Assembly: GCA_003135135.1 (NCBI GenBank)
Contig: PLDK01000042.1
Coordinates: forward strand, 24,749-75,997
DNA: 51,249 nt
Source of the DNA: Deltaproteobacteria bacterium
GTDB taxonomy: Bacteria; Desulfobacterota; Binatia; Binatales; Binataceae
Direction: 5' to 3'
The notes under the pieces were generated by a model, which saw only the letters and a list, made by a program, of their open reading frames with translations, made no database searches and was not told where the DNA came from. How positions within the stretch are numbered: the first letter of the stretch is position 1; every line of letters begins with the position of its first letter. Below, piece after piece: positions 799 through 7,075 of this stretch. The position numbers and the translations under genes were made by a program.

Positions 799-944
799 AT
801 TCGTCGTCGGCTGACCAGCATCACGATTAGAACGATCAAAATAACTCCGCCGATCCCGATTCCACCTGCGGGTCCGTAGGCGTAATAACCGCCGCCACCG
901 CCAAACAGCAACAACAGGATTAGTATCAATACCAATGGTGACAT
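795..944 (-). CDS. Small glycine-rich single-pass membrane peptide (49 aa)
   Basis: A short open frame encodes MSPLVLILILLLLFGGGGG, then YYAYGPAGGIGIGG, a second hydrophobic stretch and a terminal SRRRI. A strong ribosome binding site (GAGGAGG) lies a few bases upstream. The stop codon overlaps the start of the enoyl-CoA hydratase gene by ATGA. The composition resembles the DUF3309-type small hydrophobic proteins of proteobacteria, whose function is unknown. The coupling to an acyl-CoA enzyme may be incidental. The good ribosome binding site and overlap support a real gene. Confidence 0.6.
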   Translation of the reverse strand: MSPLVLILILLLLFGGGGGYYAYGPAGGIGIGGVILIVLIVMLVSRRRI

Positions 945-1128
945 GGGGGCCTCCTCGCGGGTCTGGCTATCGCCCGCGTCAACCCCTTCAATATCAAGTT
1001 CGGGAATCGCGGGAAACCGGATGCCCCATCGCTCGATCGTCGAAGGCGCGCCGCCTGCGGAGAGCGTTTTCCAGCGACCCGCTGCGGGCTATTATATTAC
1101 CAACCTGGATGCATTTGCCGGGGGCGGC

Positions 1129-2460
1129 GTGAATTCACCTCTAGCTCTACTCAAAAGCGACTCTCTGAACCGGCGCGAACTGACGTTCAAGGCCCTTGCC
1201 GGCCTGGTTGGCGGCGCGATCGGATGGCTCCCGGTCGAGCTGGCCTCGCACAACTCTCATCTCGGCCAGGTGCAGACGACGGGCGAGATGCTCGCGTACT
1301 ACATCTCGGCGGCGTTTGCGGCCGGCGCGATCGGCGCGTTCATCACGGCCGTGGATACATCCGACGTTCGCCTGACGCCGGAGTCCAAGCGCCGCTTCAT
1401 TCGCGGCTTCGCGATATGCGCGCTGCTCTCGCTGGTCTCCACTTACTTCGGAAATTATGTGTTCAACCTGGTTCTCATGGCAGGCGGCGTCGGCTTCAGC
1501 CCAAATGGCGAGTTGGTTTCGGGCTCGATCGTAACTCTCGTCATCGCAAGACTCCTGGGATGGGCAATCGACGGAGCGCTGGTGGGCGCCGGCGTTGGAC
1601 TGGCGACGCTCACGATGGAAAATGTTCCCAAGGGAGCGCTGGGCGGACTGGTGGGTGGAGCAGTCGGTGGAATCGGCTTCGATTTGATCGGCGCGATCGT
1701 CGGCGGCGGGCTGGCATCGCGGTTTTTTGGCGAAGCGGTCACCGGCCTTGCGATCGGATTGTTCATCGGGCTGGTGCAAGAGCTGACCAAGGCCGCCTGG
1801 GTCACGGTCGAGCACGGCCGGCTGCGCGGACGCCAGTACCGGATTGAAGGCGCGCGCGCGTCGATCGGCCGCGCCGAGGAAAATCCGGTCGGCCTGTTCG
1901 GCGATCCAGCCGTGCAGCTGCGGCACGCCGTAATCGAACGGCGCGGCGCCGACTACGTGATCAGAAATCTCGCGGTCCAGGACGGCACCTTCGTCAACGG
2001 CAAGCGAATCGAAAGCGTTGACCTGCGCGACGGTGATCGAATCGGCATTGGCGGCTACGAAATGCTGTTCCATCTGCGCGGGACGTCGGCGCCGGCCCGC
2101 CAGCAGTCGTCGCTCGCCGTCGACACGGTGAATCCCGCGCACGTCGCCACGCGGCTGGCCGGAGCAAACGCGAAGCTCGAGGGGCCGAGCCTGGTGGACG
2201 CGTCGGGGCAGCCCTACCCCGTCCGCTCCGGCGCGGTTACCCGCATCGGGCGCGCGCTCGACAATGACATCGTGGCCGGCCATTCCTCGGTCTCACGCCA
2301 TCACGCGAGTATCGAAAATTCCGACGGCGTGTTCGCGGTGAAAGACCTCAACAGCCAGAACGGAACGTTCGTCGGCAACCGGCGCGTGACCGAGCCAACG
2401 CGCGTGAGCGACGGCGACGCCGTAAGGTTCGGCGACGCGCAGTTTACCTTCCGTGGCTGA
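1129..2460 (+). CDS. Membrane protein with two C-terminal FHA domains
   Basis: The protein has about 230 residues of hydrophobic helices and glycine-rich stretches, then two forkhead-associated domains. FHA domains bind phosphothreonine, so this is probably a membrane partner of the Ser/Thr kinase two genes downstream. The second FHA domain is canonical (IGRALDND, SVSRHHASI, NSQNGTFVGNRRV). The first has IGRAEENP and DGTFVNGKRI, but its SRxH motif reads QLRHA, so the phosphate-contacting serine is missing. I prefer the GTG at 1129 because the frame upstream, open to 943, is unlike a membrane protein and overlaps the divergent small gene's promoter region. The 3' end overlaps the next gene by 8 bases. 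Confidence 0.8.
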   Translation: MNSPLALLKSDSLNRRELTFKALAGLVGGAIGWLPVELASHNSHLGQVQTTGEMLAYYISAAFAAGAIGAFITAVDTSDVRLTPESKRRFIRGFAICALLSLVSTYFGNYVFNLVLMAGGVGFSPNGELVSGSIVTLVIARLLGWAIDGALVGAGVGLATLTMENVPKGALGGLVGGAVGGIGFDLIGAIVGGGLASRFFGEAVTGLAIGLFIGLVQELTKAAWVTVEHGRLRGRQYRIEGARASIGRAEENPVGLFGDPAVQLRHAVIERRGADYVIRNLAVQDGTFVNGKRIESVDLRDGDRIGIGGYEMLFHLRGTSAPARQQSSLAVDTVNPAHVATRLAGANAKLEGPSLVDASGQPYPVRSGAVTRIGRALDNDIVAGHSSVSRHHASIENSDGVFAVKDLNSQNGTFVGNRRVTEPTRVSDGDAVRFGDAQFTFRG

Positions 2461-2794
2461 AGCGGAGTTCGAGAAGCCGAGGTTTTGCTCGCGATGCGGT
2501 CAGCCGATCGTCGTCGCCGACGCGAGTTTCTGCAAATCGTGTGGCGCGCCGGTCACTCGTTTCCCGCTGCTGCGCAGAGATCCGGGGTTCAGCCCGCTGC
2601 TGGCGCTCGTGCTAAGCATCGTTCCGGGCGTCGGCCAGATTTATCGGGGCAAGCCGTTGCGGGGGATCTTGTGGTTTTTTGGCGTATTGTTGGCGTACGG
2701 TGCGGGACCGCCGCTCGGCATCCTGATTCATCTCATATGCGCCGCCAATGCGGCCTTCTCCGATACGCTTCGCGAAGGCATGCCGGTGCGATAA
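2453..2794 (+). CDS. Zinc-ribbon membrane protein
   Basis: This 113-residue protein starts with a zinc ribbon (CSRCG near residue 12 and CKSCG near residue 28). Two hydrophobic helices follow, with a PGVGQIYRGKPLRGI motif that resembles TM2-type small membrane proteins. It overlaps the FHA gene by 8 bases and lies 60 bases before the kinase, so the three are probably one operon. The kinase also carries a CxxC...CxxC zinc ribbon, so the ribbon is a shared theme of this cluster. The specific role is unknown. Confidence 0.75.
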   Translation: MAEAEFEKPRFCSRCGQPIVVADASFCKSCGAPVTRFPLLRRDPGFSPLLALVLSIVPGVGQIYRGKPLRGILWFFGVLLAYGAGPPLGILIHLICAANAAFSDTLREGMPVR

Positions 2795-2854: not shown

Positions 2855-4366
2855 ATGATTGCGCCCAATACCATCATCGGCGGCCGTTACCGCGTGATGA
2901 AGCCGCTCGGCGGCGGCGGGATGAAACTCGTCTATCTCGCCGAGGACTTGCGGCTTGCCGCGCGGCCGTGTGCGCTTGCCGAGATGGTCGATAGTTTCAC
3001 CAGCCCGGACACGCAGAAACAGGCGGTGGCGGCTTTTCAGCGCGAGGCCGACATGCTCGCGCAACTCAGCAACGAACATATCCCGCGCGTGTTCGATCGC
3101 TTCAGCGACCAGAACCATCACTATCTCGTCATGGAGTTCATCGACGGGATCACGCTGGAACAGAAACTCAAAGACGCCGGCGGCAAGCTTCCCGAGGACG
3201 CCGTCATCGATGTGGCGCTGCAAATTCTCGACACGCTCGAGTACCTGCACAACCTGGAACCGCCGGTGATCTATCGCGACTTGAAACCGTCGAACGTGAT
3301 GCTGACGCCGTGGGGGCAAGCCAAGCTGATCGACTTCGGCATCGCGCGCCTGTTCCAGCCGCTGAGCAACGCGACGATGATTGGTACGCAGGGCTACGCG
3401 CCGCCCGAGCAATATCGCGGTAAGGTCGAGTTCCGCTCGGACCTGTACGCGCTCGGCGCCACGATGCATCATGCGCTGTCGGGCCGCGACCCCGCGCTCG
3501 AGCCACCTTTCAGCTTTCCACCGTTGCGCCCGCTATGCCCTGGAATTACTCCCGCGCTTGCCGACCTGGTAGATCAGGCGCTCAAGTACGACGTGGTCTT
3601 GCGGATGGCCGACGCCGCGGAATTCAAGCAGAGGCTGATCGCGATCAAGTCGGGCGGCGCGCCGGCAACGACGCCGCAGCGCAATTCGTCAACCGGGCCG
3701 GCGCCACGGCCACAACTCAAACTGCCGCTCGGCGGAGTCAGGTCCGCAGACCAGCACGCGTCGGCGCCGACGATGCTGACCAACCAGATCGATACGGAAT
3801 GTCCGCGATGCGGCCGAAATATCCCGGTGGATTCCAACTACTGCTCGTTCTGCGCCGCCGACATGACGGGACGATTATCGGCGCCGGATCGCGGCGCGCA
3901 CGAGGCGCGGACGATCGTGCTCGACGACGTTGCTGCGCCGGGGGAATCTCCGGGTCCGATCTTTCATGAGCGCCGTCGCCGGCGGCATCCCGCGCGGACG
4001 CTGGCGCTGGTGGTCGGCGGATTTTTTCTCATTGGATACCTGATGTTCCATTCGTCGCAACCGCAGCCTTCCGACGGTGACACGGGACCCGACTTCGGCG
4101 CGGTTCCAGAGGTGCCCAATGGCGGCGCTCCCGGTCCGGCCGAACCTGTCCATACCGACCCGCGGGAAATAGCGCTGCGCCGCGCGCTCAACGCGCAGGG
4201 CTATGCGTCGGTGCATTTCGGGATGGAGGGCGACACGATCGTCCTGTGGGGCACGGTGCCGACGGAAGCCGATCGTCTCATGGTGCAGACGCAGGTTTTC
4301 CTGGTCGCGCGAGTTTTCTCGATCGAAGACCATCTCCAGGTACGCGACACGTTCGCCGAGCCGTAG
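2855..4366 (+). CDS. Membrane Ser/Thr protein kinase with WNK-like lysine placement, zinc ribbon and BON domain
   Basis: This is a 503-residue Hanks-type kinase. The catalytic domain spans about residues 10-270: glycine loop GGGGMKLVY (19-27), helix C glutamate E64, YRDLKPSN (140-147) with catalytic D142, DFG at 160-162 and APPE at 182-185. The usual VAIK lysine position reads CALA, so the lysine is alanine at 42. A lysine (K24) sits at the third glycine of the loop, as in WNK1 (GRGSFKTVY). A zinc ribbon (CPRCG...CSFC, about 313-334), a basic RRRRR patch and one membrane helix (about 380-400) follow. The C-terminal BON-like domain is probably periplasmic. The neighbouring FHA protein is a likely partner. 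The kinase call is firm; activity is inferred. Confidence 0.88.
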   Translation: MIAPNTIIGGRYRVMKPLGGGGMKLVYLAEDLRLAARPCALAEMVDSFTSPDTQKQAVAAFQREADMLAQLSNEHIPRVFDRFSDQNHHYLVMEFIDGITLEQKLKDAGGKLPEDAVIDVALQILDTLEYLHNLEPPVIYRDLKPSNVMLTPWGQAKLIDFGIARLFQPLSNATMIGTQGYAPPEQYRGKVEFRSDLYALGATMHHALSGRDPALEPPFSFPPLRPLCPGITPALADLVDQALKYDVVLRMADAAEFKQRLIAIKSGGAPATTPQRNSSTGPAPRPQLKLPLGGVRSADQHASAPTMLTNQIDTECPRCGRNIPVDSNYCSFCAADMTGRLSAPDRGAHEARTIVLDDVAAPGESPGPIFHERRRRRHPARTLALVVGGFFLIGYLMFHSSQPQPSDGDTGPDFGAVPEVPNGGAPGPAEPVHTDPREIALRRALNAQGYASVHFGMEGDTIVLWGTVPTEADRLMVQTQVFLVARVFSIEDHLQVRDTFAEP

Positions 4367-4376
4367 CATTCATCCG

Positions 4377-5033
4377 ATGATCGCTGATCTGCACGTCCAC
4401 ACACGGCTTTCGTCCGACTCCAACGTCGCGCCGGAGCAGTATCTCGAATTTGCGAAGCGCTCGGGCCGCGGACTCGGTGCGATTTGCTTCACCGAGCATC
4501 GTCTGTTTCCTGACGATCACCAAGTCGGCCGGCTATACGCGGAACTCGCGGAGCAATTTCAAATTGCCATCTTCAAAGGGATCGAAGCCGACACCGACCT
4601 CGGTCATCTGTTGCTGTTCGGCGTCACCGATGAAGTGATGCGCCGATTCGATCTGACGGCGCGGATGCTCAAGAGCGACAGCCTGATCGAAGTGCTGCAT
4701 CACGAAGGCGGCGTCGCGATTCCAGCGCATCCGTTTCGCGATTCCGGTTACGGCTCGCGCCTGGACGCATTGCTCAGCCGCCATGGCGCGGCGCTTGGCA
4801 CGATCGAAGTGCTCAACGGCCAGAACTCGATCGAGGAGAATCGGCGCGCGCAGGACACCGCGCTCAAGCTCGGGCTGACAGCGGTTGGCGGCAGCGACGC
4901 TCATTTCGCGACTGCAAAATGGTTCATGACGATCGCGACGGAGTTCGAACGCGACCTGCGCACGGTGGAGCAACTGTGTGCCGAAATCCGCGCCGGACGC
5001 GCTCGCCCCTATGTCTTTCCGGGTTCGGACTGA
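4377..5033 (+). CDS. PHP-domain metal-dependent phosphoesterase
   Basis: This 218-residue protein begins MIADLHVHTRLSSDS, the first metal-binding motif of the PHP family. Further likely ligands are FTEHR (about 39-43), GIEAD (about 63-67), PAHPFR and the terminal GGSDAHF. The family hydrolyses phosphate esters or nucleotides using two or three metal ions; the substrate here is unknown. The ATG at 4377 lies 10 bases after the kinase stop codon and fits the motif at the extreme N-terminus, although the frame is open further upstream. The 3' end overlaps the convergent CLC gene by 25 bases. Confidence 0.82.
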   Translation: MIADLHVHTRLSSDSNVAPEQYLEFAKRSGRGLGAICFTEHRLFPDDHQVGRLYAELAEQFQIAIFKGIEADTDLGHLLLFGVTDEVMRRFDLTARMLKSDSLIEVLHHEGGVAIPAHPFRDSGYGSRLDALLSRHGAALGTIEVLNGQNSIEENRRAQDTALKLGLTAVGGSDAHFATAKWFMTIATEFERDLRTVEQLCAEIRAGRARPYVFPGSD

Positions 5034-7075
5034 GCCGCGGTCCGCGCCGCGCCGGCGGGTTCCACGCTTTCCAACTCGCGGGTGAATTGCCGGAGGTCTT
5101 GCGGACGCCCTGCCGCAATCAGCTCGTCGCCTTCTTTGAGCGGGCGATCGGGCGTAATCGGCGCGAATCCGCCGTCCGGATTGCCCGCGTCCTGAACGGC
5201 GAGCACCGTGACGCTGAATCGCACGCGCGGATCGAGTTGACGCACCGTTTTTCCCGCGGCGTTGGCGGGGACCGCGAGCCGCGTCACTCGGTAACCGGTC
5301 GCCCAGTAGATGTTCGGGTCGCGCGTCGCAAGCGTCGAGAGAGAAACCGTCACGCGGTTGAGCGCTTGTGCGATATGCTGGCTGGTGACCAGCCCGAGAA
5401 AGTGCCGCGTGTTGTGCTCGACGACCGGAATCTCGTCGAGGCCGTCATGCTCCATCAACTGGCTCGCCTCATCGAGGTTCGCATTGAGCGACACGCTTGG
5501 ACCATGCGCGTTGCAGATGTCGAATGCGTTGACGAGAGGACCGAGCTCCTGTCCTCCGCTGAGCACCGACAACAAATCGCGGACTACGATTGTCCCCGCG
5601 AGCTCGCCTTCGCTGTTGACCACCGGCAGGGTGGATTGCGCCGTCTCACCCGCGGTGCGCAGCACCTCCAACAGCGAAGTGTTCTCGGTCACCGTCGTCA
5701 CGTCCTTGGTTACGACGGCGCTGACCGGTATGAGCGCCAGCGCGAGGCGCTCGCGGCCTATTTGCAGCGTCTTGCCCGCGCGCGCCAGCCGGAACTCGTC
5801 GATCGATTCGGTTTCGATCGCACGCGCCACGACCAGCGCCGTAATCGTCGCGATCATCGCCGGCAATGCGATCGTGCTGCTGTGCGTCATCTCCCACAGC
5901 AGGAACAGCGCCGTCAGCGGCGCGTGCGTGGTACCGGAGAGAAACGCGGCGAGCCCTACCAGCGCGTACGATCCGCGCGGCCCCGTAAGGTGGGGAATCA
6001 GCATCGCCGACAGGCGCTGGAACAAGCCGCCCGCCATCGTGCCGATGAAAAAGGTCGGGCCGAAGCACCCTCCCGGCGCGCCGCATCCGAGCGACACGCT
6101 GCTGGCGAAAAACTTCGCGCAGGTCAGCGCCGCCAGCATTCCGATGCCGAACTCGCCCGCCATCGCGCTGTTGATCACCGGATATCCGTCGGACAAGTTT
6201 TGCGGAAGCCAAATCGCAATCACACCGACGACTGCAAGTCCCGCTTCGAGCTTGACCCAAACCGGGAGCTTAAGGCTGCGAAACCATGCGTCGGTTGCGT
6301 TGAAAAACCGGATGTAGCCTGCCGCGAGCACGCCGAGCGCCGCGCCCATAAGCGCGTACGTCGCCATCTCCCAATAGCTGCGCAGTACGAATTCAGGCGC
6401 GAGGAAGACGGTCGCGTTGCCCACGATCGCTCGCGAAGTGATCACGGCGCTGAAGGTGGCGATGATCAGCAATGTGAGGTTGGCGATTTCGGTGTGGCCG
6501 AGCAGCACGATTTCCTGCGCGAACATCAGGCCGCCGATCGGCGCGTTGAACGTCGTCGCGATACCGGCGCCCGCTCCAGCCGCGACCAGCACCTTGGCGC
6601 GATCGGGCGACAGCTTCCTCAGCTGCGCGATAGTCGATCCGATCGCGCCTCCGACCTGCGCTATCGGACCTTCGCGGCCGACCGACGCGCCTGCTCCCAA
6701 TGAAAGCGCGGCGCCCGCAGCTTTGACGAATATCCAGCGGCGTTTGAGTCTCGCGGTGCCGAGGTTGACCATCTCCAGAAAATTCGGAAAGCCGTAACCG
6801 AGCACGTCTCCGGGAAAAATCCGGTCAAGCAGCAGTATTGCGACGCCGCCGCTCAGCAGAATCAACGGGATCAGTGCGCGATGCGGTCCGCCGAGCCCGA
6901 TTCCAAGCGCGTTCCACTCAAGCACGCGAAATAGCCAGGAGAAGAGTTCGATCAATTTGCGAAAGCCGAGATTTCCAAGCGCCGCGAGCACGCCCACGGT
7001 CACGGCAAGAATAATCAGCTGAACGTATTCGAACTGATCGCTGCGCAGCGAAAGTGAAGGTCGTCGCATCAGCAA
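5009..7075 (-). CDS. CLC-family chloride channel/antiporter with CBS and TrkA-C domains
   Basis: A 688-residue membrane protein with about ten hydrophobic helices over the first 430 residues. It has the CLC selectivity and gate motif GASVGREGPIAQ and, later, GLMFAQEIVL, where the glutamate matches the internal proton glutamate of exchangers. Two CBS domains follow (about 445-570; TVTENTSLLEVL, NANLDEASQLMEHDGL), then a TrkA-C-like domain near the C-terminus (VPANAAGKTVRQLD...KEGDELIAAGRPQDL). Both retained glutamates suggest a proton-coupled exchanger rather than a pure channel. The CBS/TrkA-C tail probably senses nucleotides. It converges on the PHP gene with a 25-base overlap. Confidence 0.9.
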   Translation of the reverse strand: MLMRRPSLSLRSDQFEYVQLIILAVTVGVLAALGNLGFRKLIELFSWLFRVLEWNALGIGLGGPHRALIPLILLSGGVAILLLDRIFPGDVLGYGFPNFLEMVNLGTARLKRRWIFVKAAGAALSLGAGASVGREGPIAQVGGAIGSTIAQLRKLSPDRAKVLVAAGAGAGIATTFNAPIGGLMFAQEIVLLGHTEIANLTLLIIATFSAVITSRAIVGNATVFLAPEFVLRSYWEMATYALMGAALGVLAAGYIRFFNATDAWFRSLKLPVWVKLEAGLAVVGVIAIWLPQNLSDGYPVINSAMAGEFGIGMLAALTCAKFFASSVSLGCGAPGGCFGPTFFIGTMAGGLFQRLSAMLIPHLTGPRGSYALVGLAAFLSGTTHAPLTALFLLWEMTHSSTIALPAMIATITALVVARAIETESIDEFRLARAGKTLQIGRERLALALIPVSAVVTKDVTTVTENTSLLEVLRTAGETAQSTLPVVNSEGELAGTIVVRDLLSVLSGGQELGPLVNAFDICNAHGPSVSLNANLDEASQLMEHDGLDEIPVVEHNTRHFLGLVTSQHIAQALNRVTVSLSTLATRDPNIYWATGYRVTRLAVPANAAGKTVRQLDPRVRFSVTVLAVQDAGNPDGGFAPITPDRPLKEGDELIAAGRPQDLRQFTRELESVEPAGAARTAAQSEPGKT

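Follow-up and report, generated by a model that had tools for sequence, protein, structure and literature searches.

A bacterial Hanks-type kinase whose ATP-anchoring lysine has probably moved to the WNK position

The question raised by this locus is how a Hanks-type kinase without the VAIK lysine in strand beta-3 would anchor ATP, and whether a lysine at the third glycine of the glycine-rich loop, the place of the catalytic lysine in the eukaryotic WNK kinases, has taken over this role. The window, by which we mean the whole stretch of 51,249 nucleotides analyzed, comes from a genome of 3.73 Mb (98% complete) and contains an open reading frame of 503 codons from ATG to stop encoding a Hanks-type kinase, referred to here as the window kinase, with the following features.

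2855 to 4366, plus strand: gene for a membrane-anchored Ser/Thr kinase (kinase, zinc ribbon, transmembrane helix, BON-like domain)
2888 to 3664, plus strand: kinase domain, about residues 12-270 (Pfam PF00069 at residues 12-213; AlphaFold model of residues 1-275, pTM 0.83)
2909 to 2935, plus strand: glycine-rich loop GGGGMKLVY (G19-Y27), with the K24 codon at 2924-2926 in the third-glycine position
2969 to 2980, plus strand: beta-3 motif CALA (C39-A42) replacing VAIK, TGT GCG CTT GCC, with the A42 codon at 2978-2980
3044 to 3046, plus strand: alpha-C glutamate E64, from the alignment
3272 to 3295, plus strand: catalytic loop YRDLKPSN (D142, K144, N147), from sequence and alignment
3332 to 3340, plus strand: DFG motif (D160, F161), F161 lying at the place of the WNK1 chloride-site residue Leu369
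3797 to 3865, plus strand: zinc ribbon CxxC...CxxC, CPRCGRNIPVDSNYCSFC, its cysteines read from the sequence
3998 to 4048, plus strand: presumed transmembrane segment TLALVVGGFFLIGYLMF, read by eye
4160 to 4342, plus strand: BON-like alpha-beta-beta-alpha-beta domain, presumably periplasmic (Pfam, model, Foldseek)

The protein passes the Pfam Pkinase model (E 7e-34; 117.8 bits against a curated cut-off of 31.7) and, scoring 187.2 bits under a cut-off of 450, is not a member of the PASTA kinase equivalog NF033483. The zinc ribbon matches Zn_Ribbon_1 (E 0.0012) and UPF0547 (E 0.00023), both under the curated cut-offs. Among 20 aligned C-termini, 12 have a Pfam BON match at E <= 0.5, the best at 2.5e-5, whereas that of the window kinase (0.026) is under the cut-off; the model of the C-terminal domain has the order alpha-beta-beta-alpha-beta (pLDDT 74, pTM 0.54), and its nearest solved fold is OsmY (Foldseek E 4.4e-3). 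Rfam and tRNA scans of the whole window gave no matches.

The first-pass annotation had read CALA at residues 39-42, K24 at the third glycine and intact E64, D142, K144, N147, and D160, and had placed K24 at the position of the glycine-loop lysine of WNK1; residues, codons, and numbering are all as it described, and in our alignment K24 falls on the WNK1 lysine and A42 on the WNK1 beta-3 cysteine. Because the window kinase aligns without gaps across both positions to the canonical paralogue L003 (LGGGGMGMVYLARDQRLANRPCAIKEMVD) encoded in the same genome, the lysine exchange is exact: from the third-glycine place (position 55 below) to the place of the VAIK lysine (position 72) there are 18 residues in both proteins. 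A shift in register of the VAIK lysine was considered for the Binataceae CALAEM kinases (clade i) and rejected, there being no lysine from C39 to F48 and the alignment to CAIKEM being ungapped. The exchange is also fixed. A class-wide search (148 genomes) found the window kinase in all but one of the 41 genomes listed for its family; the exception, with no match at E <= 1e-45, is 53% complete. The collection of homologues that had been proposed as a check gave both K24 and A42 in 40/40 orthologues, all of which were read. The pair is likewise present in 27/27 loci from a scan of related-genome contigs (26 orthologues and the paralogue L033) and in all eight paralogues L097-L104. Codon use varies at both sites among the 40 orthologues (Lys24: AAG 30, AAA 10; Ala42: GCC 32, GCG 4, GCT 3, GCA 1), and this synonymous variation speaks for selection on the residues themselves. 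In an alignment of 28 rows (A2), K24 and A42 are invariant, as are E64, D142, K144, N147, D160, and the activation-loop residues T174/T178.

The same genome encodes two canonical relatives, L003 (GGGGMG...CAIKEM) and L002 (LGVGGMGRVYLSNDTRLANRPVAVKEMV; GVGGMG, VAVKEM), neither with a BON domain at E <= 0.001; L002 ends in a C-terminal FHA domain. L003-type kinases form the sister group of clade i in our trees and occur in the window's family and in its sister family f78, where a single match (E <= 1e-45) occurs in 9 of the 16 genomes listed; the five of these that were read are all canonical. Beyond these relatives, kinase queries matched 742, 147, and 214 plasmid records, and six of the 742 were read, each with Lys72. 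Two canonical kinases on plasmids of Paenibacillus and Agathobacter (L034:3001-3612:+ and L035:2001-2639:+) have Ser at the third glycine and keep the VAIK lysine, so this glycine can be replaced even without the exchange. The genome of the window kinase also encodes a cluster of vWA, kinase-FHA, PP2C, kinase, and FHA genes, in which a protein of 685 residues (L125:4650-6707:-) combines zinc-ribbon, kinase-like, and PP2C domains and lies between two canonical kinases.

An AlphaFold2 model of the kinase domain (residues 1-275) built from 28 sequences has a mean pLDDT of 83 and a pTM of 0.83, with the activation loop (166-178) poorly predicted. In the model K24 is the first residue of beta-2 (24-31), A42 lies within beta-3 (37-45), and E64 is in a helix (51-69). 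The nearest solved folds are the canonical kinases PknA and PknB (best PknB, Z 26), as expected from descent and thus no direct support for a relocated lysine. WNK3 with AMP-PNP (PDB 5o26) is the 34th fold match (Z 23.8) and no WNK is among the best 50 Foldseek matches listed; neither the rank nor the absence carries weight.

The genes around the kinase were compared across its orthologue loci, and they bear both on its possible signaling role and on the chloride question discussed below.

943 to 2460, plus strand: protein with two C-terminal FHA domains and a hydrophobic N-terminal part, adjoining the kinase in 26/26 orthologue loci
2453 to 2794, plus strand: small zinc-ribbon/TM2-like protein (Pfam matches under cut-offs), in 24/26 loci
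4377 to 5033, plus strand: PHP-domain gene, in 21/26 loci
5009 to 7075, minus strand: CLC-family anion transporter (CLC, CBS, and TrkA_C), with GYGFP for GSGIP and GREGP kept

This arrangement, with a BON-like domain on the outside, the kinase and zinc ribbon on the inside, and an FHA gene alongside, suggests a receptor kinase whose phosphothreonine would be read by FHA domains; the BON-like domain would probably receive the signal and the neighboring FHA protein would pass it on. Two proteins with PP2C domains are encoded elsewhere in the genome.

A second group of kinases with Lys55 (clade ii) was found with a kinase motif of the type GEGGKKRVYLARD...RDVALALIK, which at E <= 1e-10 matched 24 of the 143 genomes searched in the class. 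Among 30 loci from this query, 17 have Lys55 together with Ala, Ser, or Gly at position 72, and the other 13 are canonical. Six full proteins were scanned, and they contain a kinase domain (6/6), AAA_16 (5/6), a double zinc ribbon (3/6), and a class III cyclase (2/6). A search of 395 genomes of the phylum, in which at most six candidates per genome were scored and counts of clade ii are lower bounds, gave at least two further genomes with members (G009 and G083, which belong to another family). Three residues past position 72 many members have Lys (VALALIK) and others Arg or no basic residue; because this residue varies while Lys55 is constant, a shifted VAIK lysine cannot explain clade ii. 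In one member (L161:1594-4257:-) a class III cyclase and a SPOR domain are fused to the kinase.

We then tallied 183 aligned kinases, counting copies of the same gene once and dropping two antisense mis-hits (L003_-_0_0 and L126_+_1_1709). Lys55 is present in 77 of them (48 of clade i, 26 of clade ii, L105, L221, and WNK1), none of which has Lys72, and Lys72 is present in 105, none of which has Lys55; one incomplete row is blank at both positions. In this sample, which is biased because many rows were gathered using Lys55 profiles, no kinase has both lysines and none besides the incomplete row has neither. The equivalents of E91, D166, N171, and D184 are present in all Lys55 rows aligned before L221 was added, except in L105 (G219:C44:102117-102752), a decayed paralogue that keeps the glycine-loop lysine but has SHD for YRD and no longer has the Asn of the catalytic loop or the Asp of DFG. 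Viral contigs gave 23 loci, of which 22 yielded aligned rows, one of these rows being blank, and Lys55 occurs only in L221:1896-2948:+ (IMGVR_UViG_3300042991_001118), which in the MAFFT alignment has no Lys72 and has Ser at the alpha-C Glu. The gene upstream of it is FHA-like by eye. L221, a single sequence, is a possible third origin of Lys55. Clade i differs from 17 canonical sisters in twenty-one columns, and in just two of these, 24 and 42, does clade ii (29 rows, three of them repeats of genes already counted) likewise deviate from the remaining canonical kinases; at position 67 (Met) and a few others, clade i agrees with WNK1 and not with clade ii.

Trees were built without columns 24 and 42, leaving out L105, WNK1, L221, and the rows collected later. 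Clades i and ii separate both in a quick tree of 85 of 125 rows (fork support 90 and 99, respectively) and in a careful tree of 42 rows (97/93 and 100/98). The trees require two changes to produce the Lys55 pattern. Because WNK1 is eukaryotic, clade i has canonical bacterial sisters, and clade ii has canonical neighbors, the descent of WNK1 is separate, and the convergent relocation relative to WNK proposed in the first-pass annotation is well supported by sequence and phylogeny; the canonical sister paralogues and the second Lys55 clade lay outside the view of that annotation. Bacteria thus seem to have evolved the WNK arrangement on at least two separate occasions. We also considered a single Lys55 ancestor for both clades, with Lys72 restored in the canonical kinases that lie between them. 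Because the tree is unrooted, its two changes could be gains or losses; however, the two clades lie on opposite sides of the branch starred in the tree, each with canonical neighbors, forcing them into one clade is rejected in an AU test (p = 0.000197), and the spacing from position 55 to 72 is 17 residues in the clade ii member L129 as opposed to 18 in the window kinase and L003. We therefore regard a single origin as very unlikely.

Our working hypothesis is that the window kinase is probably an active, membrane-anchored Hanks-type kinase of Binataceae bacteria whose lysine for the ATP phosphates has left beta-3 and now sits, as in WNK, on beta-2 at the place of the third glycine. A canonical CAIKEM kinase would have been duplicated and the lysine moved in one copy, with the canonical copy persisting in the genome. 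By analogy with WNK, K24 would reach into the pocket from beta-2, contact the alpha and beta phosphates, and pair with the alpha-C glutamate E64, while with A42 the pocket would be open at its back. The identical exchange would have taken place independently in another bacterial clade, made up of large kinases. The main alternative to catalysis is a pseudokinase, in which loss of the beta-3 lysine left a non-catalytic switch that binds ATP or a partner and K24 only compensates charge or structure. Under the usual definition, as given in the available text of a 2025 review on pseudokinases in bacteria (PMC12599244), a kinase that has lost one or more of the beta-3 Lys, HRD Asp, and DFG Asp counts as such when activity data are absent, and the window kinase lacks the beta-3 Lys only; the same text discusses conserved beta-2 arginines in bacterial DLHK pseudokinases. 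The decay of L105 documents that the lineage of the window kinase does make dead kinases. Yet L105 lost its catalytic-loop Asn and DFG Asp together, whereas in the window kinase and its aligned relatives every residue from E64 to D160 listed above, as well as T174/T178, is invariant, and on this basis a pseudokinase is unlikely. Against relocation of an active site it must be said that the fork of clade i has only 90% support in the quick tree and that L221 has Lys55 yet Ser at the alpha-C Glu. In summary, the sequences establish that the exchange is exact and fixed, that the catalytic residues are intact, and that the origins are separate; relocation is very likely real and functional, and from the same residues we infer that the kinase is catalytically active. 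The catalytic step is better grounded than the signaling route because the phosphotransfer residues are retained, with one lysine that beta-2 would supply.

A further question raised in the first-pass annotation was whether chloride might inhibit the kinase as in WNKs, a question made attractive by a CLC gene convergent with the cluster. The CLC gene is indeed present and convergent, but the PHP-domain gene separates it from the kinase. In favor of a WNK-like sensor of chloride or other ions paired with this transporter are the lysine position, which has been proposed to permit halide binding in WNK (available parts of PMC7606576 and PMC4718504), and the occurrence of the CLC gene at most 5 kb downstream in 19 of the 26 orthologue loci. 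In WNK1, according to the accessible text of PMC7606576, chloride is bound by the backbone amides of Gly370 and Leu371 and surrounded by Phe283, Leu299, Leu369, and Leu371, and the L369F mutant, also named in the portion of PMC13397483 at hand, is chloride-insensitive. The window kinase agrees with this site only in Leu91 (Leu299) and the similar Ile163 (Leu371). It lacks the DLG motif and the hydrophobic chloride site of WNK, having DFG, V79 at Phe283, and at Leu369 F161, which is invariant in the 28 rows of A2 and equals the chloride-insensitive mutant. Because the canonical sisters carry the identical DFG-Ile, the four chloride-site places show no move toward WNK. The CLC gene, in turn, is missing in 2 of the 21 loci with 5 kb of downstream DNA (the other five end within 2.7 kb), and its block is shared with an alpha/beta hydrolase beyond CLC in 17 of the 19 loci and an aminotransferase in at least 11 of the 19, several loci ending early. 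A partnership with CLC was rejected on the grounds that the conserved neighborhood also holds these other genes and that a second CLC lies elsewhere in the genome (G000:C44:138582-139619). The serine of GSGIP shapes anion choice in CLC proteins, and in the alignment of the CLC gene product to CLC transporters in the PDB it is replaced by Tyr. Judged by the WNK1-site residues and the neighborhood, we found no evidence of halide control; a chloride link for the window kinase is unlikely going by its residues, and a WNK-like ion sensor paired with this CLC is very unlikely. One clade ii kinase, L140:949-1800:- (within the open reading frame L169:612-3995:-), has KTVY, VAIAAIR, and DLGLAT and, with DLG and Leu at 371, resembles the chloride-site motif of WNK more closely than the window kinase does, although this is a single sequence. 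It is conceivable, if quite unlikely, that WNK-type sites recur in bacteria with at least two and possibly three origins (Binataceae CALAEM kinases, AAA/cyclase-fused kinases, and L221) and that some of them sense ions or water through the emptied pocket, in which case L140 (DLGLAT with KTVY), and not the window kinase, would be the best candidate for sensing.

Returning to an active kinase with a relocated lysine, independent bacterial origins with surviving canonical sisters would recast an apparent peculiarity of eukaryotes as an evolutionary experiment that can be repeated, in which one can ask what the first step was, why both lysines never occur together in our sample, and whether moving the lysine is by itself enough to make the pocket accessible to ion control. 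There is also a practical side, as lists of pseudokinases called by the VAIK lysine alone could label such bacterial families dead.

In the portions available, a paper from 2007 states that among functional ePK families the WNKs alone lack K72 and numbers the WNK1 glycine-loop lysine K233 (PMC1821047), the review of bacterial pseudokinases uses WNK as an analogy (PMC12599244), and PMC4718504, PMC9758233, and PMC2631154 make no mention of a bacterial case. Among titles and the beginnings of abstracts in the open-licence literature, we found none describing a bacterial Hanks kinase with its lysine placed as in WNK. One of the Lys55 clades may be listed in a recent bacterial kinase atlas, reportedly from the group that wrote the pseudokinase review.

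Several known systems resemble the window kinase in part. In POMK (SGK196) the lysine also migrated to beta-2, but POMK is a glycan kinase in which the other catalytic motifs are displaced too, and the reverse lysine swap improved it (PMC10211241, text consulted in part). In CAK-chloro small-molecule kinases, a subfamily of choline/aminoglycoside kinases, the positive charge also shifted from 72 to 55, but as Arg55/Met72 and with Phe for the alpha-C Glu (PMC1821047, in the part available). Bacterial PknB and StkP share fold and family with the window kinase (best PDB sequence match StkP, E 2e-35), and lie apart from it in keeping the VAIK lysine and, with the exception of StkP, which has Asp at that place, the third glycine; L003 and L002 likewise have the lysine in its normal position, whereas the window kinase, with A42, lacks this Hanks-type hallmark. 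With the WNKs (WNK1, PDB 5w7t/4q2a; WNK3, 5o26) it shares the third-glycine Lys on beta-2, the missing beta-3 Lys, and the retained alpha-C Glu, HRD Asp, and DFG/DLG Asp. It differs from them in belonging to a bacterial PknB-type lineage, in having Ala rather than Cys on beta-3 and DFG rather than DLG, and in the zinc ribbon, transmembrane segment, and BON-like domain that follow the kinase. Common descent with eukaryotic WNKs does not fit its relatives, since its sisters are canonical bacterial paralogues and its best matches StkP and PknB (WNK1 was outside the trees). Judged by sequence, the window kinase would work like a WNK at its lysine, but it is not a WNK.
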